Source: Caenorhabditis remanei (lineage: Eukaryota; Nematoda; Chromadorea; Rhabditida; Rhabditidae). From it: a DNA stretch of 64,000 nucleotides. Positions 1-19,848 of the stretch are shown here, in pieces. The DNA is taken from NCBI RefSeq assembly GCF_010183535.1, contig NC_071333.1:11220587-11284586 (forward strand), written 5' to 3'. Numbering within the stretch: position 1 is the first letter of the stretch; every line of letters starts with the position of its first letter. The translations under genes were made by a program, and so were the position numbers. The notes below the pieces were generated by a model. The model saw only the letters and a list, made by a program, of their open reading frames with translations, ran no database searches and had not been told where the DNA came from.

Positions 1-910
1 AGACTCGGATATGTGAAACGATGGAGGGACTCGACCCACTCATCAACTGGCGGAAAGCATCGCGAAAATTGAATCCGATGTGGACTTTTTAAAACATATG
101 GAGCTCTCCATCTGGCTAAGATGCCGCTTTCTTCCATAAGCTCCCACTTTTCCCAGTGAACCGGTTGAATTCTGAAGCATCCGATGCTTAGATTCTCGTA
201 TTCTATGCACATGGTGAACATTTTTCCGATTTTAACACGCTAAGAAGTAGTACGATCTCGCCCCAGACGGCTCGAACGATCGTATCGAGTCTACTTCTTA
301 CTCATCGCATAGAGTTGATTTCATCACATTTTACCCCGTTCATGAATCTCGAATTCAAGAAGGGCTTTTTCTCAATACGTGTAGACTTGTAATAGACGAG
401 GTAACTGTTTTAATCGGACTGTCTCGGTTTCGAGACAGCTGCTTATCTGTACTTAGTACATCTGCACCAAATATCGTCGGTTGACGAGGAATTCGATGGA
501 AATCAGAAGTACCGAATGATGCTCAAAATAAATATATCCGGGGACATATTATGAATTTTTCACTCCTAGGTCGTGGTGATGGGATTCCGGAAGACCGTTC
601 AATCTTGCTGGAATTCATGACCACTTCTAAGGAGTACCCATTGGAGACGGAGAGTTCGACACGGGTAGCTCGAAAGCAATTTGCCTCAAACGATCGGTCT
701 ACAAATGGGTTGCGAGGAGCATGGCTAATTATATTTGTCTTTGTTTGATTCAGAATTTGATCAACACCTTCACCATTATATCATTTATTAGTAAATGACC
801 GAGGGGTCATGGGTGGATAAAACAATTGGAGGCCGTGCCAAAAACTGGAGACCTAATAAACTTTCAGCAGTAGCTATTAGCGAGTAGGGAAGAGAACGAG
901 GGGTGAATGA
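1..910. other. Gene-free stretch inside the CGAGG-rich block
   Basis: No exon with usable splice sites or a convincing reading frame is visible. The plus strand carries CGAGG copies near 398, 485, 713, 799 and 898. A TTTATT at 783-788 (AATAAA on the minus strand) lies about 120 bases beyond the stop of the minus-strand gene at 911 and probably serves as its polyadenylation signal. Confidence 0.5.
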
Positions 911-3444
911 TTAACGACCGGGTTCGTCGTGGCGATCCCGAGGACGTGCGGGAGCCGAGTGGCCGCCACATCTGCATTGATTACCCGAGATTCTGCAGAG
1001 TTGCGGAACGAGGGTTTTATCAATCCAGACGAGCCACCAGCTGCGACTTTCCAGGCGATAAACACGCATGCTCGGGAGGGCAACTTCAAACGAGGTCTTT
1101 CCTCCGTGCAGTAGCTCAACAACACATTCCGACATGCGTACCGGTGCCGAGGCTCCGGTTGTAGCGATCTGACGAAAAGCGTGAAGCGATGCTTTACAAA
1201 ATTCGTAATAACGCTCCAATTCGCCTGCGTCACATCTGTTGAGCTCATCCGTCCTTTCAGAATTGCCCGTAAGAGTGAGTTGCATCGTTTGGACTCGGGA
1301 GATGATTTGAGGTTTTTGCTCAGGAAATGGGTAAACTAGAAGAATATCCATGACCTCCAACGAGGGAAACCGGTGACGATAATTAAAAGCTTGGCGACGG
1401 ACGTCGAGGAAGTCGATGACTGCCTGAACCTCCAATTCGCGAGCTCTTTCTCGCTCTTCGGATATGCCGATATCAATGAGTCCTCTCAAATCCTCCGAAT
1501 AGGGGAATCGATGACGAGGGGCATTGAATCTAGCGAATCCGTCGAGTGGTTCCTCCATCCAACGTCTTACAATGTCAATCATAATGGGGTCTTCGAAGAG
1601 ACGCAACGTTGGAATAACCATAAAAACCTCTCGGAAATTAAAATCGACTCTTTCGTAAGCCAATCGAACATATGCACTAGGGGCGCCAGCCAGTCCTTGA
1701 CCGAGATCCGCCAAAAATCGAACGTAGCGAGCGAGGGTAACGTCAGTTACTTCTTCGCTGACTCTTTCATCATCGAACTGCCCCGTCAGAATCAACTGCC
1801 AGGTCTGGATGCGCCACAATATGGCTGGTCTAAACGTGGGAGTATCTGCTGAGTTAAACTCAGCGACGGCGAGGGCACAGACTTTGAAAGTATATCGATC
1901 ATCCGACATACAATTGATGTAATTACGGATGTATTGGAGGACGAGGTGGGACCAGCGTTCTTCCCTGTACAGTTCGACATTGTCCGTCTCGACACCATTT
2001 TCCATTGTAAAAACAGTCCCGCGAGGGGAGGCCAGGATACGATTCGAGATTTGAATCATCTCCTCTCTCAGAGTACCGGCTGGGCTCTGCATCACGATTC
2101 TATTCTGAAGGCGTTGATCCGCCACTACTGGAGGATTCGCCTGGATGTAGGTGCGGAAGGACTCAACGAGGGCGTCGATATTTTCCATGGCCTGTGGCTC
2201 ACGCTCCTACAAGCATTAAGTTACTACTGTATAGTTTATAAGTCGCCATAACGGCTATCTTACTTCATGAACGAGGGGGACACGAGGATCGCCGTTGTTC
2301 GGAAGCTCGACAACACGGGCACCTTGATTCTGAAATCAGTAAGACTGTCTTTCTAAGAATGATCTTTCTCTGTTCTCACTTGGTTCAAACCGAGGGCATA
2401 AATCTCAGGTGGAAAGACGGGGTCCTCCAGAAGGTAAGTGAACTTCATGATATACGGGACCCTGCCAGAGTCACGAATTTCTCTGTAGACTCTTCGAGCT
2501 TGACGTTCGAGCAAAATGAACCATTCATGCTCGTCCCTGGTAAGGGTGACATTGACCAGTAATTCACGATGATCCAACTCCCGATTGAGAAGACCGTAGT
2601 ATGGTTTCCATCGATAGATACAGTCCGGGATTTTTCCAAACTCATCCGCTGCTGGACGAGGGAGCGCTCCGACACCACGAATGGTGAGTCCTCTATTGTG
2701 GACAAAACGGATCTCCTGATGAACGCCGAGGGGGATATAATCGTTTGGCAATGGGAATCCGAGGGAACCATTCTCTAACAACCACTTAATGCGGCGTCCT
2801 CGCTGGATTCTCAAGTCATGTACCATCTCCTGGAATTGAAGCGGGGTTCTTTCGAGGGCACAAACACCATGATAGTGTTGATGACCCTCCCGGTGGCATC
2901 TGCGGCAGCGTCTCGGCATATCACAATGAGTGTGAGACACCGATCGGCTATTACAGAAGCCACAAAATGCGTAAGTATTCGCAACCGAGAACTGTAGCTT
3001 CTCCTCGTTGGAGAGATAGAGGACGAATCCGCAGTCTTTTTCGCTGTGGTCCACGAGGGCAGCGCCAAGACAAGAGGAGCCGCACGCAGAGCAGGCGCTC
3101 GTAATCAAGTGGTCCGCCGGATCATGTTGACTCGAATATGTACCTCTAAGCATGGAACGAATCCATCTTTTGAGCCGGCAGTTGTTAGCCATATATGGCT
3201 CACGCTTAACTACTTCCCGAAGGAAGATAGCAGGGTGTGGCAACTGCTCCCTACGTAAATACCATAAGTGGCATCCACGCGATGTGGGATTGTCGAGGTA
3301 TTCGATGTCATCACCATTGATGAGGGGGACACGCTCAGCATACGAGGTCAACTCTCGGTGGATGTTCAAGATGTTTTCCGAGACATCCAAACGCTTAGCG
3401 AAATCATCCGATGGGCATAGAGGAAGCGGGTTTGCACCGTTCAT
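911..3444 (-). CDS. Large Cys/His-array protein with an internally duplicated domain (unknown family, Gag-like knuckles)
   Basis: My model has three exons, 3444-2380, 2329-2264 and 2206-911, all joined in phase 0, giving 808 residues. The ATG at 3444 lies one base after a TTCCAG acceptor, so I preferred it to an upstream in-frame ATG at 3582. Residues about 118-195 hold three clustered Cys/His groups: CxxC with HxxxxC, then CGFC...HTHC, then CRRC...GHQHYHGVC. This matches in order and spacing the array in the gene at 5569-7506. Residues about 482-583 and 655-763 are diverged copies of one domain (RIQTWQLILTG versus RVQTMQLTLTG, followed by ARYVRF versus ERYYEF). No catalytic motif is seen. 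The 3' end is uncertain: a possible donor near the end could shorten or alter the last 30 or so residues. I do not recognise the family; the knuckles suggest nucleic-acid binding. Confidence 0.6.
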
Positions 3445-3445
3445 T

Positions 3446-5568
3446 CTGGAATTTACAGATATTAGCACCGATAAACAAGTCGTCCAACCAAAATAAGGCG
3501 GGGGGTTTTTAGGAGCGAAGGGTAAAGATGTGAAACACGAACTGAACACTGGGGCTCGAACCGCCCATCTCATTTTAGCCACGTATCAACGTGGACAAGT
3601 TTATTAGTACACGTAAGAGGTCACGTTCATAATGAACGAGGAATACGAGGGGTACACGCACTAATAATTTACGTATAACCTCGTTGTGTCATATAGGTCT
3701 CAAAGTAGGTAGCTTTCTGTGACGTCTCAGTCGGCGAATGCATCTTCGAGGGTATGACCACGCATGGACGGTAAATTCAGCTGAATTTTCATCGATGCAT
3801 GAAATTAAAAGGAAGAATCCTTTTAGGTAGAGACGGTTCCTTGCTTTTCGTGATACGCTGCAGTTCGATCAGGCAGCATTAGAAAGAACTGAGGTTTCAT
3901 CTGTAGATGACTACGAGATGATATCACTTATCAAGGAGGTGACGAGCACCTTTGCCATCGTCATGGCTCAAAAACGAGCACCTTGGAACAATCGAGATAT
4001 TCCGCTGGCGGACATTTTTCAAGTCAATCAGACCGCCGCTCATGAACGATTAACTCCATTGCCCTAACGGGGGGAAGAAAATACATTGATGAACGAATTT
4101 GAGATGAAATCTCGGTACAAGAGGCACTTTCAGTTCGGTCGCTTGACGTTCCTGAAGTCGTCAGAGACGTATAGAGATAAACGAGGTGTAGTTGTCGAAG
4201 AAGCACGTCCCGAGGGCACTGACATCGTCCGACGGTACACTTGTGAGCCAGTCAGTATGCGAGGTGAATGATCCACGTAATGACAGAGCTTCAAATTCCG
4301 CTCTTGCGAAACCTGTGCCAATACGCTCCAGTTTTACCAAAGAACTTGATTCAACCGAATTTTTGCGGGCGGCGCTAAATTGAAAATATCGCGAATTTCT
4401 GTTGGTATAGTCCCGGAGGATGTTTACCGAGGAAATTCTTAGACCGAGTTGTCGGCTTGATAACAGATCGCCCGGCGCTGAAGACCAAACGACTCTCGAG
4501 TCCCGAAGGAACGATTATCGATTGAGCTGAGGCGGTGGGGGGAGTGGAATCGTATCCGAGGAACTCACATGGTCTAGATACTGCAATACGTGCGGCCGGC
4601 GTAGGATATTTTCACTCGCAGAACAAACTTAGATCTTAGACAGTCGTGTATAGTAATAGCGTTTCTGACGCACCAAATACGCTAGGCTATACCAAGTCAA
4701 CATGCACCAGATGCCTTCATATTCAGCTGATATGAATAGAATTCCAATGTACTAGCTTGATTGATAAATCGCGATTCGAACTATCTGTGAAGATTCTGAA
4801 CACAAATTATCATCTATATCCTCATTCCTTTTCTAGCTTTCGCATCATAGATCCGGAAATTAAGTATTTATCCCGAGGGATTGGACCGGTTTTTAAGATC
4901 ACAGTGATCACCGACCCGGATAACCCTGAATCTAGGCTTAAACGAGGAGCCACCTAGTATCATCGCTTCGATTACAGGTTTGGGGGTTTACCAATTGAAT
5001 TAATTTTCAATCGGAAGGGAAGATTGTACCCGATTATGAGTCAAAAACACCGAAGTGCACCAAGATAGGTCCGACATCATATGCCCGAGGGCGCTGGAAC
5101 TAGTCCAAATCGGAATACGGCGTTAGCTGCCTGCTAATTATCAACCCAAATTGCACTAAATCGGTGTCCAGAGAACCTGGAGCACTAGATTCTGTGACTG
5201 ACATACGAGGTTTATCATTTTACCCGGACTCGAGGTCATAGGGACGGATGAATCTCCTGTTAGCCTCAGAACGATCAGAAGAGCGTACTGAGTATGAGGT
5301 TTTACTTCTATTCATAACTATAGAAGGAGGGGGGTCCAGCGAATTGGCTGGCACCTCCCAGATACGTGGCATTCAGTTCGTGTTTGGACATCAGGAAACG
5401 AGGAAAAAGAGCGCTGAAACAGAAATAATAATGAGTTCGAACTCATATAAAAGCCGAGAATGAAATCGCCCGAGATCAACAACAACTGGGATTTATTAGA
5501 AAACCCGTAACAAAAATTGATAAAAAACAACAAATTTGGTTAACAGTTATAAAAATCTCGAGGGAAAT
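3446..5568. other. Gene-free gap, possibly holding a decayed gene
   Basis: No intact gene is seen. A TTTATTA at 3600-3606 resembles the minus-strand polyadenylation signals that follow the neighbouring minus-strand genes, which hints that a minus-strand gene once ended here. Only short broken minus-strand frames remain (about 4024-4321). CGAGG motifs continue at the same density, for example near 3641, 3650, 3747, 4211, 4876 and 5090. A second TTTATT at 5492-5497 suits the 3' end of the next gene. Confidence 0.35.
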
Positions 5569-7506
5569 TTAGTCGGCAGTTTCTGGCTCCTTCTTTATCG
5601 AGGATTCCGACTTTGCCACTGGGGCGAGTCTCGGTCTCTTCGCATCGTCGCGCTTTCCACTGCTTCTGTGCTTGGCGCCACGACGCTGCCACTTGGATCC
5701 ACCAAATTTCTTCGAGGGTTCGCCACCGGATCCTTTGCTGGACGAGGGGGCTAGTGCTCGGTGACTCGACGAGGCCTTCTCTTCATCAGAACCGGAGTCC
5801 GAGAAGAAGTGGTTCTCTTTAAAATCGACGTACTTTCTCTGCACGTGATATCGACCTTCTTGGCGAGGCCGAGACTGGTCGATGTATTTGCCCATGTTGG
5901 CGCCGAAGTACGAGGAATCTTCTTTAGGATCAGATTCTGAGCGATTTCCTGCTTTCGAGGTTTCTCCGGCCGAGGAAGACGGATGCTTCTGGTGGCGGGA
6001 AGGGCACAAAAGAGGATGATGCTCGCGTTCTTTGGAGGGCATGGACGGATCACATCTGAGGCAGAGACGGTGTTTCGCTTTGCAGAGTTCTGGCGAGCCA
6101 TCGCAGTCGTTTTTTCCGCAGATGATACATCTTTGCTGAGTAATCAGCGCCAGACGTTTCGATTGCAGATCGAGGTGCACGTCACAATAGGCTGCGTCGT
6201 GTGTTCCGGTGCAGTAAAAGCATTTTGTGGAACTCTGAACATTACTGAATTAAGAAATGATCTAAGAAAATCACACTACGTACGGTCTTTCGGGCTTCAT
6301 GAAGCTTTCGCTCCTCAATTTCAGCAACCTTTCGATTGTGAGCACGGTCCGAGGAAGTACCGATCGCTGCGATCTCATCGAGGGCTATCAAGACCGTGTC
6401 ATCGTGGTCGGCATCTGGTTCGAGGATGTGCTTGAAGCTGTCCTGATCCTTTTTAATTCCAGCCATTTGGATTTTTAGGTCTCTGACCTCCGTGGCCGTT
6501 TCCATCGATGACACTTTCCGTGCAATATAGCTTCTCAGTGAATCGTAGACTCTGGTGATTTTCAACGAGGTGCTTTCGAACTTTTTCCAATCGAGGGAAC
6601 CTTGCTTCAAAAGCATCTCAACTTTCTCATTTCCTTTTCCTTGACTTCTGGAGAGACGGCGTTGATCGATCGCGATCCGAGTCAGCTGCTCCAAGAAGAT
6701 ACCCATATTTTTGGAAATACCCTGGAGAGTTGTGATCGGGGCCAATCTCTCAATCATATCGGTCCATTGATCGAGGGAAGGAATACGATCAGTCAGATCT
6801 GCTTTCTTCGCGAGGGCCTCGAGGTCGGTCTTGGTTGCCAGCACTTCGAGATCTTTCTTGGTCACGTATTTGCCGAGGTCATCATGGGTGACTGAAGCTG
6901 TCGAGATGGTTTCGAGCTGATCCGAGATCTTTTTCAGCATCGCAAAAATCGTGGGAATCGTCTCCGATTCTTGGGTAGTATCGAGGAGTTGAGCTACGGC
7001 CTCTGGCATCTTTCCGTCGGTCTCATCACCGGATGTGGGCGCTGGACGTACGTCCTGGTCCTTATCTGGTGAATCCTGCGAGGGATCGACTTCGTCAGCG
7101 TTCGAGTTGACATCAACGTAGAACGCTGGCGGACCGAATAGAACCTGCTCGTTTGGCGGGAGGTCGTCCTCATTTGAGTACGATTTTCCGGCCTCATCGA
7201 GGATATGGTTGTCCTCTCCTGAACTTTCCCCATAATCGAGAAGCTCTTTCTCTTCATTTGATCCGGGCTCCACGCTAGCCGATCCGAGTCCGAAGACTGG
7301 TGGGGCGGGCGAGGATTCTGAAACAAGAAGGCTAGTCACTCTCCACTCATTATCGATCTGTTTTTACCTTTGCCGACCTCAAGGAGCTCGACGATGCGTT
7401 GCTCACTTATCGGGGGGCATGGGATCAAGGCGACCGGCGGAAGCACTTTGCGAGGGACCTGATTGTTCATCGACTCCTGGTCGTGAGTAGTGTTAGCTGC
7501 ACTCAT
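5569..7506 (-). CDS. Gag-like protein: acidic N-terminus, coiled coil, three-part zinc-knuckle array
   Basis: There are three exons, 7506-7368, 7317-6284 and 6234-5569, with clear GT/AG sites and perfect frame closure, giving 612 residues. After a Pro-rich start and an acidic stretch, residues about 160-340 are helical and likely coiled coil (repeated KKDLEVLATKTDLEALAKKADL-type heptads, only partly quoted). Residues about 396-450 contain CFYCTGTHDAAYC, a CxxCxxxHxxxxC knuckle. An Arg/Leu linker follows, then CIICGKNDC...C and CLRC...HH...C. That order is typical of BEL/Pao-type Gag proteins. The tail is rich in Ser, Lys and Arg, with a likely nuclear signal. No protease, reverse transcriptase or integrase frame lies nearby, so it may be a domesticated or stand-alone Gag. 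A polyadenylation signal sits at 5492-5497. Confidence 0.68.
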
Positions 7507-7672
7507 CTGTTTATGCTAAATCAATACAAAAATAATGATTAATTCACTGAGTCGTTTACGAAACAGATATCGAACGGGGTAAAAACCGAGTTACTGAATT
7601 ACAAGCATAAATGAGGAGTGAAGGACACAACTTTATTACGAGGTAAAAATGAACAATCAGTCTTTCTGCAAT
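7507..7672. promoter_or_regulatory. Short intergenic spacer with minus-strand polyadenylation signal
   Basis: TTTATT at 7632-7637 reads AATAAA on the minus strand, 36 bases past the stop of the gene at 7673-8467. The 5' flank of the Gag-like gene at 5569-7506 therefore lies within about 160 bases of that 3' end. The tight spacing would allow an operon, but no SL2-type evidence can be judged from sequence. Confidence 0.45.
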
Positions 7673-8467
7673 TTATGACGGCTTCCATTTGAGTGAAAAC
7701 ATCCTATCGAGGGTTCCCGATTGGAGCTTGTGATGTACCAAGAGCATCGCTTTTTGGGCGATTTGACGGATTTGACAGAAGTCTGATAGTCCGAACGCTT
7801 CATGTTGTGACAGTAGCGAGGGTAGGTATCCGCAGTTCATATCGTTTTCACGAATCAAACTCAACGAAGACAATCGTGAAGTGGAGTACCGAGGGCGAGG
7901 AGCATTTACATCAACATAATCCAAAATGGCTACGTGATAGGCTACCCACTGGTCCAATGGTGACATATCCCGAGGGATACGTGTTCCAAGAGCTTCCGGA
8001 GTCTTCTGGAGGAAGAATCCGCCGTTCAACTCGAAAGCCCGGACACTGTGCTCTCGACAACTCTCAACTTCGACGAGGATCCAAGTTGACCACACACGAT
8101 TGCGTGATGCGAAGGCGTATGCTCGAACCATCACTTCCATTGGCATTCGATCTATCCGAATCTGAAAACTAGAGGCATCATTAGATCAAACTGTCTGCTT
8201 TTTCTGGCCAACCATCGTTTTTTCGAGGTGTTTATACTCGTTTCTGCTAGAATTCACAACTTCAGATGCCCGAGGGCGATTGACGTCGAAACTCGGAGCA
8301 ACAACGAAACTAACTGACTTCTGATCCGATTTCTCAGAGCGAAAAGTCCCCTCGATGGAGCGAGAACCTGGAAAAAGTCGATTTAACCGCCCGATTCGAT
8401 CTATTTGGATACTTTTGCAAGTTTCCTCCTTTCTCAAACACGAGGGATGTCTACCGAATTGATCCAT
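7673..8467 (-). CDS. Hypothetical 247-residue protein of the CGAGG block
   Basis: The model joins 8467-8213 and 8161-7673 in phase 0. The 51-base intron has a good TTTTCAG acceptor but a weak GTTGGC donor, so the first exon is uncertain. The second exon is firmer. The ATG at 8467 follows a TTTATTTCAG acceptor by about 35 bases. The protein is basic at its N-terminus. It carries an NGGFFLQ segment followed by a WVAYHVAILDYVDVNAPRP segment. Related strings (DGGFFVK and WVDDKFVLYHINPPRP) occur in the neighbour at 9722-10333, in the reverse order. I do not recognise a domain and assign no function. An AATAAA signal follows the stop at 7632-7637 (minus). Confidence 0.45.
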
Positions 8468-9721
8468 TCTCGCTTGACGATTGGCCAAAAAGTGCTGTTA
8501 CCTGAAATAAAAGTTTAGCCGCGAAACACCGGTCTATGTAAAGCGAACAGAACAAAGATACAAACATGCAAAAACACGCTGGGGATCAATGAACACATAA
8601 AGGGGGCATTTTCGTGGGAACTTTTATCTCATATAACGACAATTATATCTAATGATTTGTGACTTCTTTAACGAAATCCCGAGGGATCTCGTTCCGGCGG
8701 TGACGAAATGCTATTTTGCATCGGCAGCTGCTCTGAAAAACGAATCTTTCATAGCAACGGAAAGAAATCACGGGGGCGTTACCATCATCTCATCATTACG
8801 TAACGGAGCTGTTCCGGTCCAACGGAATTTTCAGTTAGCAAACTTCAACAAAAAACAACAACGAGGTGAGAATATGCGAGAATTGAGACGAGGAACCTGA
8901 AACACGACCGATGTAAATGAGCTTGCTCATCTTACATCCTAAAATAGATGTCTTGTTAGAATTCTGACCTCTTATCTTACAGGCCCTTTTCGTATACTGA
9001 AAAAACCATTCAAATCAAAATTTCTCTCGTAAATGGGGGGTACCCTCCTAATTTTTTTGCACAACAATAATGTACATCTTTTGCACTTTTTACCCTTAAC
9101 AGGAAAAAAATAAATAATCCCGTTAAATTTTTTTAGAGCGGTTTGAAATTTTCGAAAATTCGAGTTGGTGTCAGTTTTTTGAAAATTTGACACTCAAAAA
9201 AAACTTTTTTTTACAAATTCAATTTTTATTCTTGAAGCCCTTGAAATTCGCTACTTTTATGCAACAATCCCTTTTCTTCAATATTACATCTAGCTAGTGA
9301 AAAAAATTAATTTAGAAAAAATTTCGAAAAAAAACTTTTTTTTCGAAAAATCTCAATTTCTCAAAAACAAGGTCACGTCACAGGAAAACCCGTTATGGCT
9401 TGTATATTCTTCGCAAAACTCATCGAATGAGCAAAAAAAATCGGTACTTTAGGGGGGGCAAATAAAGTACATTCCATGTTAAACGACTACACCGGAAGTG
9501 CGTACAGGTAACACGCAAAGTGCGTCAGCTGCCTGCTGGCTCGAAACTAGCTAAGAAAAAATTATGCGTACTTTTTCGAAACTCTCAAATTTCGCAATTC
9601 TGACCTACATGGCCATTTTCCTTGAAGGAAAAGCCATTTCCAGGCTGAAATCTACCAAGCGACAGTGCTAAAAACGTACAAGTAGTTAGTAGAACGGCCA
9701 AAGAAGCTCAAACGAGGGCTT
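8468..9721. other. Intergenic region with an AT-rich insert lacking the CGAGG motif
   Basis: CGAGG copies occur at about 8679, 8862 and 8889 and then stop until 9713. The intervening stretch, about 8925-9690, is markedly AT-rich, with runs of A and T, unlike the flanks. The 11-mer AATTCTGACCT occurs at 8960-8970 and again at 9596-9606. No gene is seen. A later insertion into the block is the simplest reading. Confidence 0.45.
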
Positions 9722-10333
9722 CTAGAGATTCCAGGTTGAAAATGCTCTTCTCAGAGACGATAATCCAGACAGGGTCTCGGCGCGGGTGGGTTCCGAGGGC
9801 CAATAATTTTGGGTACGACTAGTCGAGGGCAGCTCAAAGAGATGAGCCTCGATTTTAATATCCTCCATCATTTTTCCTTCACGGAGACCATCGGCGATTA
9901 CCGCTGCGAACGCGAGGGCTTGACACTCCGGTGGATCAGAATGATCGTAGAGCGGAGTGTCGTACCACGGGTTGCATTGGCAACGCGGATGATCTACGGG
10001 AACCGAGTTCCGCAGCCAAGTCGCGAATTCGACTTTTACGAAGAATCCTCCGTCCTGAAATACAAAACGAGGCTGAGTCGAATAGTGCTTTCTCACATGT
10101 GAATGTGGGCCTTCGGGGCATCCAGGAGGTGGTCGAGGTGGGTTGATATGATAAAGAACGAACTTATCATCTACCCATTGATACCATTTAATCGCGTCCT
10201 CCGAAAAGGACTCGAAATTGAGCGGGTCGTAGTCGACTCGTACCGACAGATACGGAGTACCGTGGGCATTGATCGAGTGAAGACTGAATCCGATCGCTGG
10301 GAAATCGAAGGGAGCACTGTCCGACAGAGGCAT
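9722..10333 (-). CDS. Hypothetical 203-residue protein of the CGAGG block
   Basis: This is a single open exon. A CTACAG acceptor ends one base before the ATG at 10333, consistent with spliced-leader trans-splicing or an upstream non-coding exon. The protein is rich in Pro, Trp and aromatic residues, with the segments WVDDKFVLYHINPPRP (about residues 52-67) and FQDGGFFVKVEF (about 91-102). It has a Cys pair in HPRCQCNPWYD and no transmembrane span or signal peptide. The DGGFF and W...NPPRP strings resemble strings in the gene at 7673-8467, so the two may be distant relatives. The family is not recognised. Confidence 0.5.
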   Translation of the reverse strand: MPLSDSAPFDFPAIGFSLHSINAHGTPYLSVRVDYDPLNFESFSEDAIKWYQWVDDKFVLYHINPPRPPPGCPEGPHSHVRKHYSTQPRFVFQDGGFFVKVEFATWLRNSVPVDHPRCQCNPWYDTPLYDHSDPPECQALAFAAVIADGLREGKMMEDIKIEAHLFELPSTSRTQNYWPSEPTRAETLSGLSSLRRAFSTWNL

Positions 10334-11186
10334 TCTGTAGGTAACTTAATACAACGGTTTTTACACGTTTCTGTGATAAATCAATGAAATGATACGATCT
10401 GAATAACGACAGTTCACTTTGAAAAAATAGTGAAAAGACCACAAAATTCCACTGATTCAAAACGGAATTGCGTAAAAATTTATAGTCCGAGGGACTCTAG
10501 AGGCTGATGCATCCGATCTGTTACGAGGGCGGTGCATCCTTCACTCCGATTTCATTATCATCCGAAATCCGTCATTCGATGAGAATCAGAATTTCTATGT
10601 TTCTAACGAGCATGATGTATTACTGGACTCTGAATTCGAGGGGTCGGCTGAGATCAGAAGAAATTAGCCTATGCCTAACGAATCATCAGCGAAGTAACTT
10701 ATCAAGTTTCCGAGGCGGCCGGGTGAAATTTCATCAAAATTCGTATCGGTGCCGTCTTCTCTTACGAGGAGTTGGCGAAGAATACGAGGGACGAATAATC
10801 ACGAGGTCAACGGGCTCTTCTAGATGTACAGAATCTGGAATCTGTCGTAACGGTTCGAGTGACTCATTCGTGTGTTCGAGACGCCTAAAATGAGCCTAAC
10901 ATGTTCATCGATTATCACAAATAGAGCTGGTTAAAACCAGATATTACCCCGACGTGGAAGACGAAAGTGAACTGGTTCAAAGAACAAGTTTTATTAAGAA
11001 AAATTTAATAGACACGTTAAGGAGAGTGAGATTGGACGAGGTATTAGGCTGATCAAGACGTCGTTGAACGCGTGAAGATGTGAAAATGTCCAGTGAGGCG
11101 GAAAAAATGCTGTCACGAGGGTGGCGAGGAAAATTGAGAGATCTTGGAAGCGCGGTTGTAACGAGATTGCAGTCTATGGAGTGGAT
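10334..11186. other. Intergenic, CGAGG-rich, no gene seen
   Basis: CGAGG copies lie near 10490, 10524, 10638, 10710, 10767, 10786, 10801, 11038, 11117 and 11125. A plus-strand open frame at 10507-10893 has no splice or family support and I do not call it. TTTATT at 10989-10994 reads AATAAA on the minus strand, about 190 bases beyond the stop of the gene at 11187. Confidence 0.45.
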
Positions 11187-11896
11187 TCAGTAGGCGTTGC
11201 AAGCAGATGGGGCAACTGCGCCAGACTGAGCTGGGGCGAATTGGAAACCCGTGCCGGCTTCGTCATCTGAATCGTCTTCTTCGCCGTTAGAGTTGGATGG
11301 GGGAGTATCCGGATCGGAGTCCTGACCGTCCGAATCCTCTGACGAATCAGACGACTCCGAGGAGTCTCCGTAAGTAATAGACTGGAAAATCTTGATACGT
11401 TTTCGGATGCCTCGAGCACTCAATTCTCCGTTGGCCACGTCGCCACGGATTCGATCCATGATCTTCGAGATCTTCTGGAACATTCGGTGACGCTGGGATA
11501 TTTAGGTGTGACTGGGTACCGCATAATTAGAGTAGCGTTTTCGCGCAATGCGAGGGTCCTTCTCTTTTTTGGCGGTTCCAAGATCGGAATCTTTGAGGCG
11601 TTTGGCTACGAGGTCGCTAATCTCCGCTCCGAGGTCGGCCTTGAACTTTCCATTCAATAACTTGAACAGAGAGTCCTGAATACGAGAGCTGGCTTGAAGC
11701 TGCATCTCAAAGTGTCTCATGGACACCATAACCAGTCTCAGACCGGAAATCAGCATATCGTAGTCGGCACGGCTCATTGTCACACCTAAAACACCATCAT
11801 CTGTAATTTCTAGCTCGAATTCTGGTTAATCTCACGCTGTGGAGGTTCCGAGGGCTGATTGAAGCCTTGCGGCGGGTCAGATCCGTTAGCCGACAT
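11187..11896 (-). CDS. Small protein with helical core and acidic tail (210 residues)
   Basis: There are three exons, 11896-11836, 11785-11520 and 11492-11187. All joins keep frame; the last intron is only 27 bases, which is unusually short and could instead be retained. The ATG lies 13 bases downstream of a GTTTCAG acceptor. The middle exon is predicted helical (MSRADYDMLISGLRLVMVSM onward), with Lys/Arg clusters at its end. The last exon has a long Asp/Ser/Glu-rich acidic tail of the sort found in chromatin and nucleocytoplasmic proteins. No known domain is recognised. If the 27-base intron is not spliced, the protein ends at a stop near 11502 as a 110-residue product. Confidence 0.5.
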
Positions 11897-14800
11897 CGTC
11901 GATCTCGAGGGTCGCTGAAACATAAATGATTCAACTATGCTCGGATGGAACAATGACGAGAAACTGTCACGGAAAAACACGGGCAAAATAAGTTAGAATT
12001 CAAAAAAAAGAAACTACTTGCGTATACAACAGGCACAAAGGTTCGAGATGACGAGAGATAGTCCACGACGTCAGTTGAAGGAGTCACCTTCTCAGACATC
12101 CCTGGCTAGAGCTCTACGCGAGAAGTTTCGTCGCAACACGATACTAAACCATCTCAAAGCTAAGCGAGAGCTTTCTATGTAGCGATCGAAATCACCACTC
12201 TGAAAGCAAGAGGCTTTGGAATCATAACGGATTCCGTGATGTAATTAGTTTGACAATATAGTGTATTCGTAAGCTGATTACGGTCTCTCTTAAACGACTA
12301 TCATTCTCATCGGTTCTTTGTAAGTCTCGAGGATCTACTAATTTCAGTGTAGTTCGTGATAGAGACGAGGTATTGGTAGCCTAATAAGGCCCTCCGCTTG
12401 CCAGGCGGCCGGCCCGTTACTCTACCGATCCGCTTAAAATCGCTGCAAAACGGCTAAACCGAAAGCTTCAACCTCAAGTCCTACTTAGAACAAAACGAAG
12501 ACTCGAATGACAGAGAGGGTCCGTAATCAAAAACGACTACCTACGGCCACTAAGAGAATCGAGGGAGAAGGGGGAGTCATACAACGCCGGCTTATCGCTG
12601 TCATCTGCCTATACCGCAAACTAAAGCACCACATAGTTTATTCTCTTTCTCTCATCCAGATGTGGTTATCGAGTGGATTTCCAGATTGGTAATAATGTCG
12701 ACAACGGTTGTTAGACAACCTTCAGATTTCGAGGGAGTATTCACAGTCAGTAATGTACAAATAGTACAAAAGCCACGCGACCTGACGTGAAACTACCGAA
12801 AATCCGGTCTAAAATACCCCAAATCCCATGCGGGACAGCGAGATTCTAAAAAAGAATCTGTGCTACAAGAATTCCTATGCAATTCGAGGGAAACGCGCTC
12901 ACACTCGCCCACTGGGGGAGAATGTAAGTCTATTTCGGTCGAACTACTCTCGATACTGAACATCCTTCACGAGATACTCAGAGTTCCGTGTTATGTATGA
13001 TCGAATATCTAGGATTCAAAATCGAAACTCTGATTCCGTACTTCATACACATCTTCCAATAGGCGGATCTGATAGTACCAAATCTGGTCCCGAGGGTCTC
13101 ATAGTCAATGGCGCCCTGGAGCAGTGGGTCCTAGAACCCATGCTCCGGGGGGCCAGAGGATTCGAGTATATCTCCGCTCTGAAGGGTCTCACTCGAAATC
13201 GAGGGATATGCTTCGGCGGAGGCTACACTGAATCGCTGACTACGATAATCTCTGAACGTGATCCAGTACTAGAAACTCTCCCCAGAGCGTAATCCACGCT
13301 CCGGGGGGCCAGAGGATGCTCCATAGGGAGTATCCTCCTCAAATCCTGTAACCGGAAGAGCATACGAAAGACACTCTCTCGTACTAACACGGCCGACTAT
13401 CCTATAGCTCATTGGGGACGATCACCGAATAACCAACCTTGCGGCCGGTTACGAGGGGAGCGGGCCAACAAGCCAGAATAACCGGGTTGACTGTTTCAGT
13501 TCACGTTAATACGCTACTGAATATGTCGGTCGCCGAAGAGCATATACACTCTTCAACTAAGTCTTCTGGCAGTTAGGTCAGATTTCGTATCGATGTGTAC
13601 ATAGTCGGTCGAATTTCAAATAGCATGTATCCGAGGGGAGTAGGCCCATATGGGGTTCCGGTCTCGATACGAAATTCAACGTGCCTCGGTGAGACCGAAC
13701 GATCTGGAACCCATTCAATGCATAGCTCTCCGAATCAATTTGAACGGATGACTCGCTAGCACCAAATGCTCCGCAGGAGGGAATGGTCGTCTGAGGATCG
13801 GCAGTTCAGATGCTTGAAAAGCGTCTGTCGAACCAACGAGCTTAGGCGTAGTTCCTTTCCATTGGAGGTTCTAACACAGAAGACAAGTGCGAAATTACCC
13901 AAATTTTTTTGCGAAGTAGCGTCTTCTTGGGATAGAAAGTGGATATTAGTGAGTCGATATTATCTAATAGGCCGCTAGTTATCATATCAGGTAAACAGAG
14001 GGTACCGACTGCTCGATCGCTTCGGATCTACTCACAATGCAGCGCTTGCGCTGATGTTTTCGAAAGTAGGCATCAGCCTTAACCCTTCAGAATCCTGCTA
14101 CTAAACCAGTGGGTTTTCGAACCATCGATGAACTAAATCGACTTTCTACCTAGAAGTCTGAAAGCGAGGGAGCGAATCGGATGACTAACAAGAAGAATTG
14201 ACTAGGTGTATTATCGAGGTGAGGGGGATTCGAAAGACTCGAAATACATCGAGGGAGATCAAATCGCCGAGGCTCGCATTAACACCATTGGTCGAACTTC
14301 CAGAATTGCGAGGGTCGTGAGGTCGAGGAAATATCGCCATTTCCTGTCGAGCTCTAAACCCGAGCAATAGGATACTATCCGAAGGCACGCTTGCTATCTA
14401 CTGACGGCTTACGAAAAATTCTGAGTCCCGATGATGGGCCAGATACAGTACGTATTTCCGCTAACTGTTCTCAAACGACTACCAAATCAAACGATAAGGC
14501 AAGAACAGACTCACGGAACGTTTAATGAATCTCATTGGAGCGTGTTAACTCGAGGGGCCGTTATACGAAAATGGCATACGCACTGATTCGTGGCGTACCT
14601 TACTCGAGGTTTCTGTATTCATATGCCGACCAGAGACCCTTGCCGGCAAGACGACCACGGTTAGTGGATGGGAGCCGCTCGGGGGAAACGGGTGGGACAC
14701 AGAGCTTACAGTCCCTAACTGACGCAGAAAATGGAGCACCTGAGGCGGGACAGGGACTGCCCTCCAGAGGGAGGAGTCTGATCGTCTCTTGCCTGGCATC

Positions 14801-15535
14801 TCTTTCGCTAGTCAATAACACGAGCCGATAAGCTCAAAACCGTATCTGGTGAACCAGTCGGGCTTCACACGAGGGGGCCAGCCTGCTCGGTACTTAATTC
14901 AACACATTCGGCGGGTCGGAATTAAACCGATGAAGCCTAGTGAGCTGAACAAAACCAAACCGACCCAAGATCTCATGTAAACATCAACATTCCGAGGGAT
15001 CCTTATCCCACGAGAGGGGTCGTACGCAGCAAAAACTGCTGACCGCTCGGGCAGGGAATCGGTCACCGGGACTGCTCGCGCTCCGAGGAGCTGGAGACAA
15101 ATGCCGATAAACCATCAAAGGGAGCATCCGAAACATCAAAATCATACACGAGGTCGAGGAACCCCAGTTTTTCATATCATCCTTCAGTCTAAAAACTCGG
15201 CATCCCAACCGCTTTGCTACCTTGCGGCTGCTTAGCGGGGGTTCCGGGTTCTCAGACATTCAGACAACGTCTTAGATCCGAGGAATCGATTGTAGGGTAT
15301 CGATCCGAATGCTGTAATTGACCACCGATCCCCTTCGGAAGTACAGAATTCATAAGAATTCCGTAAATATCCGGTGAGGGGAGAGGGCGAAATCAAAAAC
15401 TATTCGGAAAGACGTGACTACAATAGACGCTCAGATCCGCAAAGAGACTCCCTCCGATCCAGCAAGCTGGCATGAAGGGACCTTGACTTATTCAACGACC
15501 GTCTTTAATGCGATCAGTCGGCTTCCAGTACCACA
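11897..15535. other. Long gene-free, CGAGG-rich stretch
   Basis: No convincing exon is visible on either strand. Base composition matches the gene-bearing part of the block. CGAGG copies occur roughly every 100-250 bases on the plus strand, for example near 12329, 12542, 12726, 12884, 13091, 13200, 13452, 13632, 14166, 14250, 14310, 14551, 14866 and 14993. A 19-base direct repeat (GCTCCGGGGGGCCAGAGGA) lies at 13142-13160 and 13298-13316. Confidence 0.5.
13142..13316. repeat. 19-base G/C-rich direct repeat pair
   Basis: GCTCCGGGGGGCCAGAGGA occurs exactly at 13142-13160 and 13298-13316, 156 bases apart. The sequence just upstream is also similar (AACCCAT versus AATCCAC). It may be a residue of a local duplication. 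Confidence 0.6.
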
Positions 15536-15539
15536 CCCT

Positions 15540-16520
15540 CCCGCAAACAGACGAATCTGTGTTAAAACACAGCAAGAAGCGGCAGTACCTTTTACCAACT
15601 TATCACAAAAAATAAGAGCGGAGAACTATAGCCAAGTGGCTTCATCCCGAGGGAGAAGCGCCCAAAACGAGAACAATCCCGCTCAAATTCCAGCACGACA
15701 CGACATCGGAGACCAACACGAGACTTCTGATCGATTTTTCCCAGTTTCCGAATGGTTCGGGGCGAGTGGCACGCCTCGAATTGCTTCGAGGGGTGTCAGA
15801 ATCGCGAGAACCGTTCGTAGTCCCGAGAAAACCGAGGGAAGTTGACCAGCAGACGACATCCGATGCCACAGGGCACGAGGGAGCCATCCAATCCAATCGC
15901 GAACTTCTGATCGATTTTTTCTCAGTTTCCGAGTGGTTCGGGACATGCGAGACGCCTCTAGTTCGTTACTCGAACGTCTCCGATGTGATCTGTTAGCTAG
16001 AAGTATTACACCTTTCCGCAAACGGACGAGTCCGTGTTAAAACACAGCAAGAAAGGGGCAACACCGTTCGCCAACGTAGCACGAGGGATAAGAACCAGAA
16101 ACGAAACCTCAAAGCGTGTCGGAATCGCGAAATCCAGTCGTAATCTCGAGAAAAAAGCGAGGGAAGTGGACCAAAACAGCAGCAGACGAAGCGACGAAGC
16201 ACGATGCAGTCAGAGTACCCAATCCGTAGAACTTCTGATCGATTTCTTGCCCGCTTCCGGTTTTTTCGGAATTTTCGAAATATTTCGAAATCCGAAAAAA
16301 TGGGGAATTGGGGAGAAAAACGAGGGAAGCGGGAGAGGGCGATGACAACTGACGCAAATGAGCACGAGGCAATCAGAGTACCCGATCCGTAGAACTTCTG
16401 ATCGATTCCTTGCCCGTTTCCGGGTTTTTCGGAATTTTCGAAATATTTCGCAATATTTCGAAATTCGAAAAACGGGGGAATTGGGGAGAAAACCGAGGGA
16501 AGCGGGACCGGGCAATAACG
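15540..16520. repeat. Diverged tandem repeat, unit about 163-179 bp
   Basis: A core reading (GA)ACTTCTGATCGATT followed by a TTTCCGG-like segment begins near 15722, 15901, 16229 and 16392. The spacings are 179, 328 (about two units) and 163. Units are separated by CGAGGGAAG at about 15833, 16157, 16320 and 16494. A longer segment with GTGTTAAAACACAGCAAGAA recurs near 15560 and 16036. Open frames over this interval on both strands follow the repeat and are not genes. Confidence 0.7.
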
Positions 16521-18628
16521 ACTGATGCCCGCGAAGCTCGAGCCATCCATTTGAGTCGATGCGAGGGCGTTCCGATCGATTTCCAACCAATTTTCAGAAA
16601 ATCCGTTGAAAAATCCTCGAGGAGAGCGAATCCGAGGTTGATGTGCGAAGAAATCGAGTGGAATTGGGAAATTTCGCCGGGAAAATGTGCGGAATGCCAA
16701 AAAATTAGAATTTTCCGAGGAAAATTCGATTTTTCAGACAAACATCGAATTTCGAGGAGAAAAATCCGAATTTCTCGAGTGTCCGAGTGTTTTCGGGCCT
16801 TTTCCGTCGATTTTCTAGCTGGTTTCCACGAAAAATCGCGAAAACGTTGCCGAAAAGCGAGGGAATGATGCAAAAATCGCGACGAAATTCGCGCAAAAGT
16901 GGGAAGGCCTAAAGCCGCATCGCGGCGCAGCGCTTCGCACTAGAGCGCAGTTGCTACCGAAATTTAAAGGTGGGGCCTTAAATGGCGCCAAATTCAAATA
17001 AGGGGAGCGGAATTTTGCGAGAAAAAAGCAACAAAAAGACCGAAATTGCGAAATGCAAGGAAGTTTTCGCCGTTCTAATGTATCTCAAAGGAAAAACACG
17101 AGAATCGCAGCACATAAAATCGAAAAAATCGATTTTTTCGGACAAAACATGGGCAAACCGACTGATTCGTCCGTGTCGAGGGGAAAAATCGATAACTCGA
17201 AATTTTCCGGTCTAGCGGAGAAATCCTGGTCAAGATGCACCAAATGTGGCCACCCCTTCTGTCTCCAGAAGGCCGCCGGTAATGTGCCGAGTAGGGTGGG
17301 AACATGCGCCCAATTTATACTTCCAATAGGTGGTTCAGTGGATTTAAAGGAAGTGCCCGATGTGCTGACAACTCAAGTATTTACAAGAACCATTTATTAT
17401 AGGGAAAAAGCATGTCCCGCGAGGAACTGCATTAAAAACCTATTCGGTTCTGCCTTTTACAAAACAATAGAATTTAAGGGGAAAAGGGTTATCGAGGGAA
17501 TATAGTAGCGACTCTGCAAGCGCCCGATACACGTATCGGGGGCTCTCGAGGGGCTACAAGACGCTCTCTAACAACTTCTCTTACAAAACACAATAATAAC
17601 TCTCTTAGAGAGAGAAGAAAAACAACACTTAGGAACAACTAAATTATAAAAGGCTTTAGGCCAGTCGAGGGGTGTCGGTCGAGTACGGTCACAGTCGTTT
17701 AGCAGGTGTGCGCGCGGCGAGACCAGCGGACGTCGGAAACAGCGTGCGCCTTTGACTGGAGAGACGCAGACACGACTAAATGGCGGCAACTTGAATTGTG
17801 GAATATTACTTCCGCCTGAAATGGGGTTAAAGGGACAGGGAAGAAGGGAGTTAATTAACAGAAAGTAAAATACGTAATAAGTATAAACTAAATTAGAATA
17901 ATTTAGTGATACAAATTACATTTTAGTTTGGAGTGGGACAGGAACCTGATTCGGGGACCAGGAGACTGTCAACAAAACATCCTTTACTGTCTCCACTTCA
18001 TCGTCGTCAAAAATCATTTCTTATTATTTTTCATGTTCCCATATTTCATATTGTACGGAAATCATATATAAATGCAGTTTTGAACAATTTTCCTTGAAGC
18101 AACGTTGACTGACCTAGCTATTTTACGCGTAATTACTAGAGGCTTTTATTCGAAATGTTAGCACATTATTTCCGCGATTTGACCACATTTTTGAAGTAAT
18201 GCTTTCGACTTTTTACCATTTTTGGAAATTGTTGAAAATGACACATTTTCCAAGAGTAAGAAACCGAAATCAATGAAAAAAACTTTAGAATGGACGAAAA
18301 TTGGAAAAATTGAAACTATGCCTAGCCCAAAAATGCCGTTTTTCAAAAATAACTGATTTTCGATGAGGTTAGACACTTTTTCAAAATGAAACTAAAAAAT
18401 GGTCTATAAGTGCAAAAAACGTCATTTGGTCATAATTACCTGATTTCTTCTCATCTGTTGCATGCGAGACACAGTGCGGTCGCAACGCGGCAGCAACGCG
18501 TATATAGACTATTGATTTGAGATTCAAGAGCCAAAGATATGTTTGAATTTATTTATTTCCATCACATCAAGATCATTCACAAAAAAACAAAAAGCAGAAT
18601 TCAAAAATTTAGATGTAGACAAATTCAA
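16521..18628. other. Right edge of the CGAGG block and AT-rich spacer
   Basis: The last dense CGAGG copies are at about 16562, 16617, 16859, 17177, 17492, 17547 and 17667. From about 17.8 kb the sequence turns AT-rich and the motif disappears. A plus-strand frame at 17053-17505 has a CTKCGHPFC string but no other support. No gene is called. Confidence 0.5.
17519..17544. repeat. Inverted repeat (hairpin) near the block boundary
   Basis: AGCGCCCGATAC and GTATCGGGGGCT form 12-base arms with one mismatch around a two-base spacer. It lies just before the CGAGGG copy at about 17547, close to the right limit of the motif-dense block. Confidence 0.6.
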
Positions 18629-19093
18629 TTAATCCCTGGCGGGCAGCAATCCGTTCGCAGCATCCTCCTCATCCGTCGGGATCCCGAAGATCTGGCGAAG
18701 TTCCTCCGCAGTCTTTCCTGTGCACATCTCACTGACAATCTTGCAAGAGTAGTTGAGAAGACGTTTGATATCCAAATAGTTAGCGGCACAGATCAGATCA
18801 TAGAGCTCCATGTTGCTCATTTTCAGAAAATCTCTGTCCCATTCAGGAACCTCCACCATCCTCGGATTACTCTCCTCAGCCGTTGGAATTTCTTCTCCTT
18901 TGTGATGCTCACACCAAGCGGCCACCTTCTTCAGAGGCGTCTCCTTGATAATCTCCATTGGAATGACTTCATCCGTGTTTCCGAGGGTTACCAGTAAGTC
19001 ACTCAGAGTTTTCGATTGTTTGATTGCCGTCTCGGAGAAGAGAACCTCCTTTCCGTCGCTCGATTCGAGTTTGTAGAAGAATTCTTCGGCCAT
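18629..19093 (-). CDS. Skp1-related protein (skr family), short C-terminus
   Basis: This single-exon gene encodes 154 residues. The ATG at 19093 follows a T-rich TTTTTTAAG acceptor-like sequence directly. Skp1 proteins bridge cullin CUL-1 to F-box proteins in SCF ubiquitin ligases. The N-terminal BTB/POZ-like fold is visible (FYKLESSDGKEV, the SKTLSDLL helix, then LKKVAAWCEHHKGE). The Skp1 dimerisation part follows (WDRDFLKMSNMELYDLICAA, then NYLDIKRLLNYSCK and EELRQIFGIPTDEED). The protein ends soon after that and lacks the final F-box-contacting helix with the conserved WC of canonical Skp1. Several nematode skr paralogues, as I recall, have similarly altered tails. AATAAA on the minus strand (TTTATT at about 18550) follows the stop by 70-80 bases. 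Which skr member it is cannot be settled by eye. Confidence 0.88.
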   Translation of the reverse strand: MAEEFFYKLESSDGKEVLFSETAIKQSKTLSDLLVTLGNTDEVIPMEIIKETPLKKVAAWCEHHKGEEIPTAEESNPRMVEVPEWDRDFLKMSNMELYDLICAANYLDIKRLLNYSCKIVSEMCTGKTAEELRQIFGIPTDEEDAANGLLPARD

Positions 19094-19848
19094 CTTAAAA
19101 AATAAAGTAAATAAATCAATAAAAATCTTGAGGTATAGGGGGAATAGAAAAAAAGAGAAACGAATGCGTAGAATTGGAGGGTCCACTCACCTTTTCTATT
19201 CTCCTGCCAGATGGTGTACGCGGGGAGGGGGGGGGCTCGCTGTGAGACCCTTATCTCATATAATTGTATGTGCCTTTAAATATTTCCCAGAGTACAGCCC
19301 ATCAATAATATGTAGAGGTGGTTGATGTCGCTTTATTAGTGAACGCCGGTGTGAAAAGAGTTTATTTAAACCAAACTGACAATAAATAATTAGTCAAAGT
19401 AGTATATTATTCATTTGAATGCTAGAATTTCGACTACTTCTTGAAGTTTCCGTAACTTTGTCAAGTTTCAATATTTTTTTTGACAAAATTAGTGTTAAAA
19501 CAAATCATTTTTGACGTTCTATCCGATTTCGTCGAACAAATTTCAAAAATGTTCTTATCTCCAAAATTGTATTTTTTTTTCTAATAACTCATTTCCTCCT
19601 TTTCTAGTTCAGTTTTCACTGTCATGAAAACTATCAGTAACACAACGCTGATTTTAAAAATTATCTTCCAGGCTGAACGTCTATTAGTGATTGAATGTAC
19701 GTATAAGAGTATTTGATACCACACATATCAGATATGGGCAATTTAAAAGCGAACGAAAAAATTTTTCGTTTCACTAATTTCACTAAAATAATATTGTGTC
19801 GAATTTGAATGTTTAATGCTGGAAAAAAAAGCGAATACTAGAAAATTT
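19094..19848. other. AT-rich spacer with a short G-run
   Basis: No gene is seen. A GTGAGT donor-like site on the minus strand near 19189 could belong to a 5' untranslated exon of the Skp1-related gene. A plus-strand G-run (GGGGAGGGGGGGGG) lies at about 19222-19235 and might form a G-quadruplex. Confidence 0.4.

Follow-up and report, generated by a model that had tools for sequence, protein, structure and literature searches.

The question raised by this locus is why one short word should be repeated many times, in a single orientation, over many kilobases of an animal chromosome. In the window analysed here, a stretch of 64,000 nucleotides from Caenorhabditis remanei (contig NC_071333.1, positions 11,220,587 to 11,284,586), an earlier note made from the letters alone had estimated about 130 copies of CGAGG against about ten of the complementary CCTCG in the first 17.7 kb, and about 20 CGAGG elsewhere. 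Counting gave 143 and 10 in positions 1-17700, and 19 CGAGG with 13 CCTCG outside them. This is far above a shuffled background, and the strands are clearly unequal: 200 dinucleotide shuffles gave 23.2 +- 4.8 CGAGG (maximum 36) and 18.1 +- 4.7 CCTCG (minimum 7), and the longer form CGAGGG, present 76 times, averaged 6.0 after shuffling (maximum 12). This block is most of a 24,976-bp Bel/Pao-type long terminal repeat (LTR) retrotransposon lying on the minus strand. We propose, with about even confidence, that its word, CCTCG in the sense of the element, is a dispersed recognition mark, read on the full-length RNA by a protein of the element family in order to tell its own RNA from that of the host.

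A one-strand word carried by a retrotransposon family

The element is inserted on contig C6 of the 130.5-Mb genome. It is bounded by identical direct repeats of 730 bp with TG...CA ends and by a 5-bp target-site duplication (Table 1), in line with a Bel/Pao element. The block described in the earlier note is real, but its limits had to be moved: it starts at about window position -7000, where the density rises, and ends at 17974, the outer end of the LTR. The exons, introns and spacers in which the motif had been placed do carry it, but they are those of one minus-strand retrotransposon and not of host genes. An array of host genes was indeed rejected, the open reading frames (ORFs) of the window block being part of the retrotransposon.

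At least 42 matches to the LTR were found in the genome, a lower bound as the best 40 of 90 candidates were scored. Among the 30 loci fetched, 23 displayed 9-20 CGAGG per 1.5 kb on one flank and 0-2 on the other, one was intermediate (6 CGAGG) and six had no dense flank. Of these 23, 20 are the members of ten pairs, which span 12.0-12.3 kb (four pairs), 18.5, 22.3, 22.4, 25.0, 26.6 and 28.2 kb, with dense flanks turned inward in all ten; for the other three, the fetched loci included no partner. In the orientation of the query, each of the 30 LTR matches contains two to five CGAGG and no CCTCG. The motif therefore stays within the element and follows its orientation, and it belongs to the element family, not to the chromosome. 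Further blocks of constant orientation thus exist, a point on which the earlier note had suggested a check. Among the places listed for close triplets of CGAGG, nine of nine lay on the minus strand inside a C3 element and five of five on the plus strand inside a C4 element; over the whole genome there were fewer such triplets (442, of which the first places were listed) than matches to a reversed-pattern control (1966), with no genome-wide excess.

Three copies were read: the window copy, one of 28.2 kb on C3 whose LTR is 79% identical, and one of the 12-kb class, whose LTRs are 93-94% identical to those of the giant copies. On their sense strand, CCTCG ranks first among 5-mers and CCCTCG among 6-mers, at about one CCTCG per 125 letters of the element. 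Sense and antisense counts were 197/15 in the window copy, 211/10 in the C3 copy and 86/6 in the 12-kb copy, 494/31 in total, and the antisense word CGAGG is at 0.46 of its expectation in the family. The core is sharp, with no one-base neighbour comparably enriched. It is preceded by C in 49% and by G in 10% of cases, and the flanks of the 494 sites are otherwise nearly information-free. Density and polarity are unchanged in segments without an alignable counterpart, which hold 30/2, 27/1 and 55/2 sense and antisense copies in 4.6, 3.3 and 6.6 kb.

The spread is more even than chance would give. The variance-to-mean ratio in 500-bp bins was 0.69, 0.74 and 0.80 in the three copies, and gaps shorter than 20 bp numbered 38, about 66 being expected. 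CCTCG was present in 126 of the 127 bins; about three empty ones were expected at random, and the single empty bin is not striking by itself. Expansion of an ordinary tandem repeat, or an artefact of assembly, could be invoked in view of short local repeats near the 5' LTR, where the adjoining leader (window 15720-16528) contains, beside the dispersed word, degenerate direct repeats about 50-94 bp long. We consider this origin extremely improbable. A tandem repeat was rejected, as the earlier note had already judged by eye, on account of the irregular and underdispersed spacing and of the 494 sites with almost no flank information beyond one preceding base. An artefact, which that note had kept in mind as a possible refutation, is unlikely because the element has both a target-site duplication and many genomic copies.

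Silent sites, turnover and the word of a sister lineage

The word is enriched independently of the encoded proteins. In 16 ORFs of the three copies (C3 gag not included; a small number of ORFs share up to about 90 bases, and a few sites may thus be counted twice), 224 CCTCG were found, while 67.3 were expected when synonymous codons were shuffled within each ORF. Every one of the 16 was in excess, with z from 2.3 to 11.0, and the sites fell in the three reading frames in the numbers 73/65/86. Such an excess in all frames means that neither amino acids nor codon usage explain CCTCG.

Conservation was evaluated between the window and C3 copies, which align over 20,990 bases with an identity of 74.2% (23 alignments, after dropping those that overlapped better ones). 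Counting both sides, 170 of the 283 occurrences of CCTCG (60%) are shared; the shared fraction is 37 +- 10% over all 5-mers and 27% over permutations of its five letters, and CCTCG ranks third of 302. Conservation goes together with turnover. In an alignment of reverse transcriptase (RT) with outgroups, CCTCG sites were variously common to the sister lineage (see below), restricted to the family or present in a single copy, and in an alignment of 30 LTR copies two sites were present in 29 and 28 copies, five in 6-22 and one in 2.

The earlier note had also suggested the footprint of a process acting on one strand. A strand-asymmetric mutation, or a codon bias of the element, that produced the word without selection would leave just such a one-strand bias. 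It is nevertheless very improbable here: of the 113 unshared cases, 45 are one base apart and these cover all 15 possible differences, one-base neighbours of CCTCG are not comparably enriched, its sites are shared above other 5-mers, and synonymous shuffles that preserve codon usage abolish the excess. The alternative offered in the same note, a cis-acting array bound by a factor, fits the behaviour of the motif in its synonymous-site excess, conservation and even spread. What the note had missed is the Bel/Pao body, the attachment of the motif to a family, its sense form CCTCG and the existence of a sister with another word.

This sister lineage comprises elements around C4:4082020 and on C100, whose RT is 80-81% identical to that of the C3 copy. 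The C4 pieces, found within 15 kb on one strand and taken as one element, include accessory ORFs with 38% and 47% identity to those of 431 and 410 amino acids in the window copy. In 3,948 bp of the sister, drawn from three genes, CCTCG occurs 6 times, compared with 29.9 expected at the density of the family (Poisson 1.3e-7). In an RT piece of up to 1 kb, likewise, CCTCG is present 7-8 times in five family copies (the window copy, with 660 bp, has 7) and twice and three times in the two sister copies. In the sister, ACCGC ranks first instead, with 20 copies for 3.3 expected and a score of 9.2; the 95th percentile of 58 host segments of equal length is 6.4 and their maximum, in a G/C run, 9.0. 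Taken by itself, the RT piece already has ACCGC as its top word, and both other pieces contain it as well (9/1 and 5/2). The degenerate form ACC[A/G]CG, found by exploring the very pieces in which it was then counted, has 20 sense copies and one antisense copy, compared with 0.14-0.17 per kb in host DNA, and exceeds synonymous shuffles in the three genes with z of 6.8, 6.6 and 4.3. Both words share the frame CC-N-CG, and one RT site reads ACCTCG in the C3 and C1 copies and ACCACG in the sister copies. Tandem arrays that contain ACCRCG, with periods of about 77, 92 and 21 bp, were also observed in the genome (G000:C1:13273975-13283842, C1:16391213-16399037 and C5:2972231-2973328), not near the studied elements.

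The sister bears on two further explanations. The word could be the site of a host RNA-binding or small-RNA factor, exploited by the element, for instance against germline silencing or against the splicing of its long RNA, without any reader of its own. A shield that acts by density would be expected in every kind of sequence, and the word is found in coding and non-coding parts and in the LTRs (in the window copy, 9.25 per kb in large ORFs and 6.88 per kb outside them). An LTR element of C. elegans does need special help in exporting its unspliced genomic RNA (PMC10309623). We nonetheless consider it unlikely, although worth keeping in view. Any element could make use of a host factor, but the sister, which shares the genome, has a different word, and no CCTCG excess is seen in six further Bel/Pao elements (RT identity 36-53%, 1.2 kb each); the word is not enriched in sampled host DNA either (observed/expected 1.0-1.1). 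Alternatively, the word may act on cDNA or DNA, for instance as a polar strand-transfer or priming site when the 25-kb template is reverse transcribed, or as a polar chromatin site. Fixed polarity suits a polar DNA process, and the words extend through the LTRs, but lineages with 81% identical RT have no clear need of different words, and we regard this explanation as improbable.

A proposed recognition mark and its candidate readers

We return to the recognition mark proposed above. The word is likely to be a mark of the lineage because it is found on one strand, at silent positions, and is replaced by another word in the sister; a family-specific word within one shared host, in turn, argues for a factor made by the element. 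From a mechanistic point of view, an RNA of about 25 kb, probably intron-bearing, would have to leave the nucleus unspliced and enter particles. An element-encoded protein may read CCTCG on this sense genomic RNA, and not on the cDNA or in chromatin, and may act in the nuclear export or the packaging of the unspliced form. Copies with more marks would have been propagated more often, so that marks would accumulate and be replaced site by site, and reader and word would change together at lineage splits. Dependence on factors supplied in trans would explain why the mark is retained in the 12-kb copies without RT and in the window copy, whose pol is shortened.

Which protein may read the word can be approached by comparing the two lineages. 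The C-terminal zinc-knuckle block of gag is 85% (window copy) and 82% (C3 copy) identical to that of the sister, and 89% identical within one word. The accessory protein compared is 38-39% identical across words and 51% within. Since this protein diverges more across words, accessory proteins, among them the cysteine-rich ones of 410 and 226 amino acids, appear to be better suspects than the gag knuckles, in a comparison that cannot decide between them.

Several observations weigh against the proposed mark. The gag knuckle block, being nearly as alike across words as within one, is not pointed to as the reader of specificity, and neither a reader, RNA nor protein binding was observed in this sequence-based analysis. 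Predicted RNA accessibility at 220 sampled sites equals that of shuffled flanks (difference 0.005 +- 0.017). A depletion of sense-strand GGGG and GAGG is also encountered in relatives without CCTCG excess (0.22 and 0.73, compared with 0.44 and 0.65 in the family; sampled host DNA is not depleted), so that it is not specific evidence for a word kept unpaired; CGAGG itself, by contrast, is at 0.97 of expectation in these relatives. The sister word rests on 3.95 kb. Genome-wide triple patterns of ACC[A/G]CG added one homologous sister site: at gaps of 2-32, three of 95 places lay in sister copies, all in sense and at that one site (reversed control 297), two other sister copies had no such place and many of the other places were overlapping tandem repeats, while at gaps of 64-94 the list was swamped by satellites. 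Finally, the six distant Bel/Pao relatives have no clear word of their own in 1.2 kb each, a size at which power is low, as in 1-kb pieces the word of the family itself scores 5.6-6.3, compared with a host 95th percentile of 6.5.

One of these relatives (L055, C4:18096701-18097900, RT identity 53%) contains ATCCC 8 times in sense and never in antisense in its 1.2 kb. This is at most a hint of a third word, as its score, 4.4, is within the host range.

A more general form of the proposed mark can be put forward, to which we give somewhat less than even confidence. In nematode Bel/Pao elements, lineage dialects of a short word (CCTCG here, ACC[A/G]CG in the sister), up to two hundred per sense RNA, would form a self/non-self watermark by which element-encoded readers would select their own genomes. 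Polymerase-less satellites would mimic this watermark in order to be carried along, and word and reader would co-evolve with the splitting of lineages.

Content of the element, known systems and significance

Table 1. Features of the window copy (window coordinates unless preceded by L018, the piece upstream of the window).
Feature	Position	Strand	Remark
Bel/Pao-type LTR retrotransposon, window part	1..17974	-	full element spans -7001..17974; L018 contains the part before the window
5' LTR, 730 bp, TG...CA	17245..17974	-	identical to 3' LTR at window -7001..-6272 (L018:2999-3728)
Target-site duplication AAACA	17975..17979	.	second copy directly left of window -7001
Candidate primer-binding site TGGTGCATCTTGACC	17228..17242	-	two bases inside 5' LTR; from sequence
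Dispersed CCTCG array	1..17700	-	143 copies (plus strand: CGAGG); entire element 197 vs 15
Accessory ORF, 207 amino acids	9725..10345	-	synonymous-site motif excess z 4.3
Accessory ORF, 170 amino acids	7676..8185	-	C3 163-amino-acid ORF alike by eye
Accessory ORF, 373 amino acids	6245..7363	-	C3 ORF 47% identical
Accessory ORF, 226 amino acids, cysteine/histidine-rich	5572..6249	-	C3 ORF 46% identical
Accessory ORF, 410 amino acids, cysteine/histidine-rich	2356..3585	-	C3 ORF 63% identical
Accessory ORF, 431 amino acids	914..2206	-	C3 ORF 51% identical
pol ORF, 874 amino acids	L018:3680-6301	-	part of RT, then Pro/Ser/Arg-rich repeat region

The gag ORF of the window copy (873 amino acids) lies in L018, on the minus strand between the LTRs. 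It contains five CCHC-type zinc-knuckle blocks, found by pattern search, and a DUF1759 match slightly below the cut-off. In pol, RVT_1 (6.7e-11) was the sole pol domain matched, and the domain search found no integrase in this ORF; its Pro/Ser/Arg-rich tail resembles, by eye, the end of pol in the C3 copy and in the 12-kb copies. This truncated pol, together with identical LTRs, suggests a recent insertion driven in trans. The C3 copy, by contrast, has a full pol in a single ORF of 1965 amino acids, with a Pao peptidase A17 domain (9e-55) and RVT_1 (2.5e-11); the same search gave DUF5641 (48.7 bits) and a weak Integrase_H2C2 match (24.6 bits, cut-off 25.5).

Several accessory ORFs lie upstream of gag, four of them with homologues in the C3 copy at 46-63% identity. 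The 410-amino-acid ORF is probably spliced to the 431-amino-acid ORF, introns being suggested by a single C. remanei protein of 699 amino acids, the only homologue of both found in the protein database (for the 431-amino-acid ORF, the 7997 candidates sharing most words were scored). Pfam returned nothing above cut-off for ten window ORFs, and AlphaFold models of the 410- and 431-amino-acid proteins, with one homologue each, were unusable (mean predicted local distance difference test score 33).

Within the four 12-kb LTR pairs, no RT match was found among the best 121 of 178 candidates scored. The 12-kb copy read holds its 86 CCTCG nevertheless, and its gag, 32% identical to that of the window copy, is without the C-terminal zinc-knuckle block of the latter. 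Shared LTRs combined with divergent gag in these pairs (G000:C4:1682837-1694834 and three more) may reflect modular exchange between lineages. A further LTR pair, at 1417256/1448702 on C6, was rejected as a 31-kb copy, since its dense flanks point away from each other; this region (G000:C6:1415256-1449000) holds two LTRs (L029 and L021), with an RT fragment at 1415258 and a fragment of the 410-amino-acid ORF at 1461909, and is what is left of two distinct copies. An ORF of 185 amino acids adjoins the window copy on the outer side of its 5' LTR (window 18629-19186, minus strand); by eye it looks Skp1-related, and the element is inserted near a host gene.

These elements share with Bel/Pao the TG...CA LTR pair, the 5-bp target-site duplication, RT, the gag zinc knuckles and, in the C3 copy, A17; a possible integrase zinc domain of that copy scores just below the cut-off. 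They differ in a size of up to 28 kb, in the accessory ORFs upstream of gag and in the dispersed one-strand word. No description of such a word in a retrotransposon was found in the literature searched, in which most subscription journals were outside coverage.

Known systems offer partial parallels. DNA uptake sequences occur in about equal numbers on both strands of the bacterial genome, unlike the 494 and 31 found here, and the present word differs further in belonging to a eukaryotic mobile element, in its length of 5-6 bases and in the absence of uptake. They are alike in being specific to related lineages, and dialects of a short word are described in Neisseriaceae (PMC3630211). CCTCG and ACC[A/G]CG are likewise each specific to a lineage. 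Dispersed viral packaging signals are presented in stem-loops; here the carrier is a retrotransposon, flank preference is almost nil and no effect on predicted accessibility was found. Many recognition copies along the sense RNA are nonetheless common to our elements and to the dispersed packaging signals of single-stranded RNA viruses (PMC6281560). Confinement to the leader, as for the retroviral 5'-leader packaging signal, does not hold for a word found in nearly every bin. The choice of RNA by LTR retrotransposons, and its hijacking by non-autonomous elements, are mostly known from localised leader signals. The nucleocapsid of Moloney virus binds, by its zinc knuckle, an exposed G in short words such as UCUG and, as proposed, CCUCCGU (PMC7599994); CCUCG is likewise a short, mostly pyrimidine word in several copies, over the whole 25 kb and not in the 5' leader as described there. 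In C. elegans, the accessory nuclear protein CERV of Cer1, with a cysteine-rich region, is needed for the export of unspliced genomic RNA (PMC10309623). Cer1 is also a nematode LTR element with an accessory protein; it is Gypsy/Ty3-related, and a dispersed RNA word is not described in the available part of that report (PMC10309623).

If the proposed recognition mark is true, these elements would hold a specificity code written over the whole genome of a eukaryotic mobile element, kept at silent sites and swapped in a sister lineage. Self-recognition between co-resident elements would then become testable, as changing the word should change the specificity. It also calls for caution, since a nucleic-acid mark can shape codon choice in such elements.

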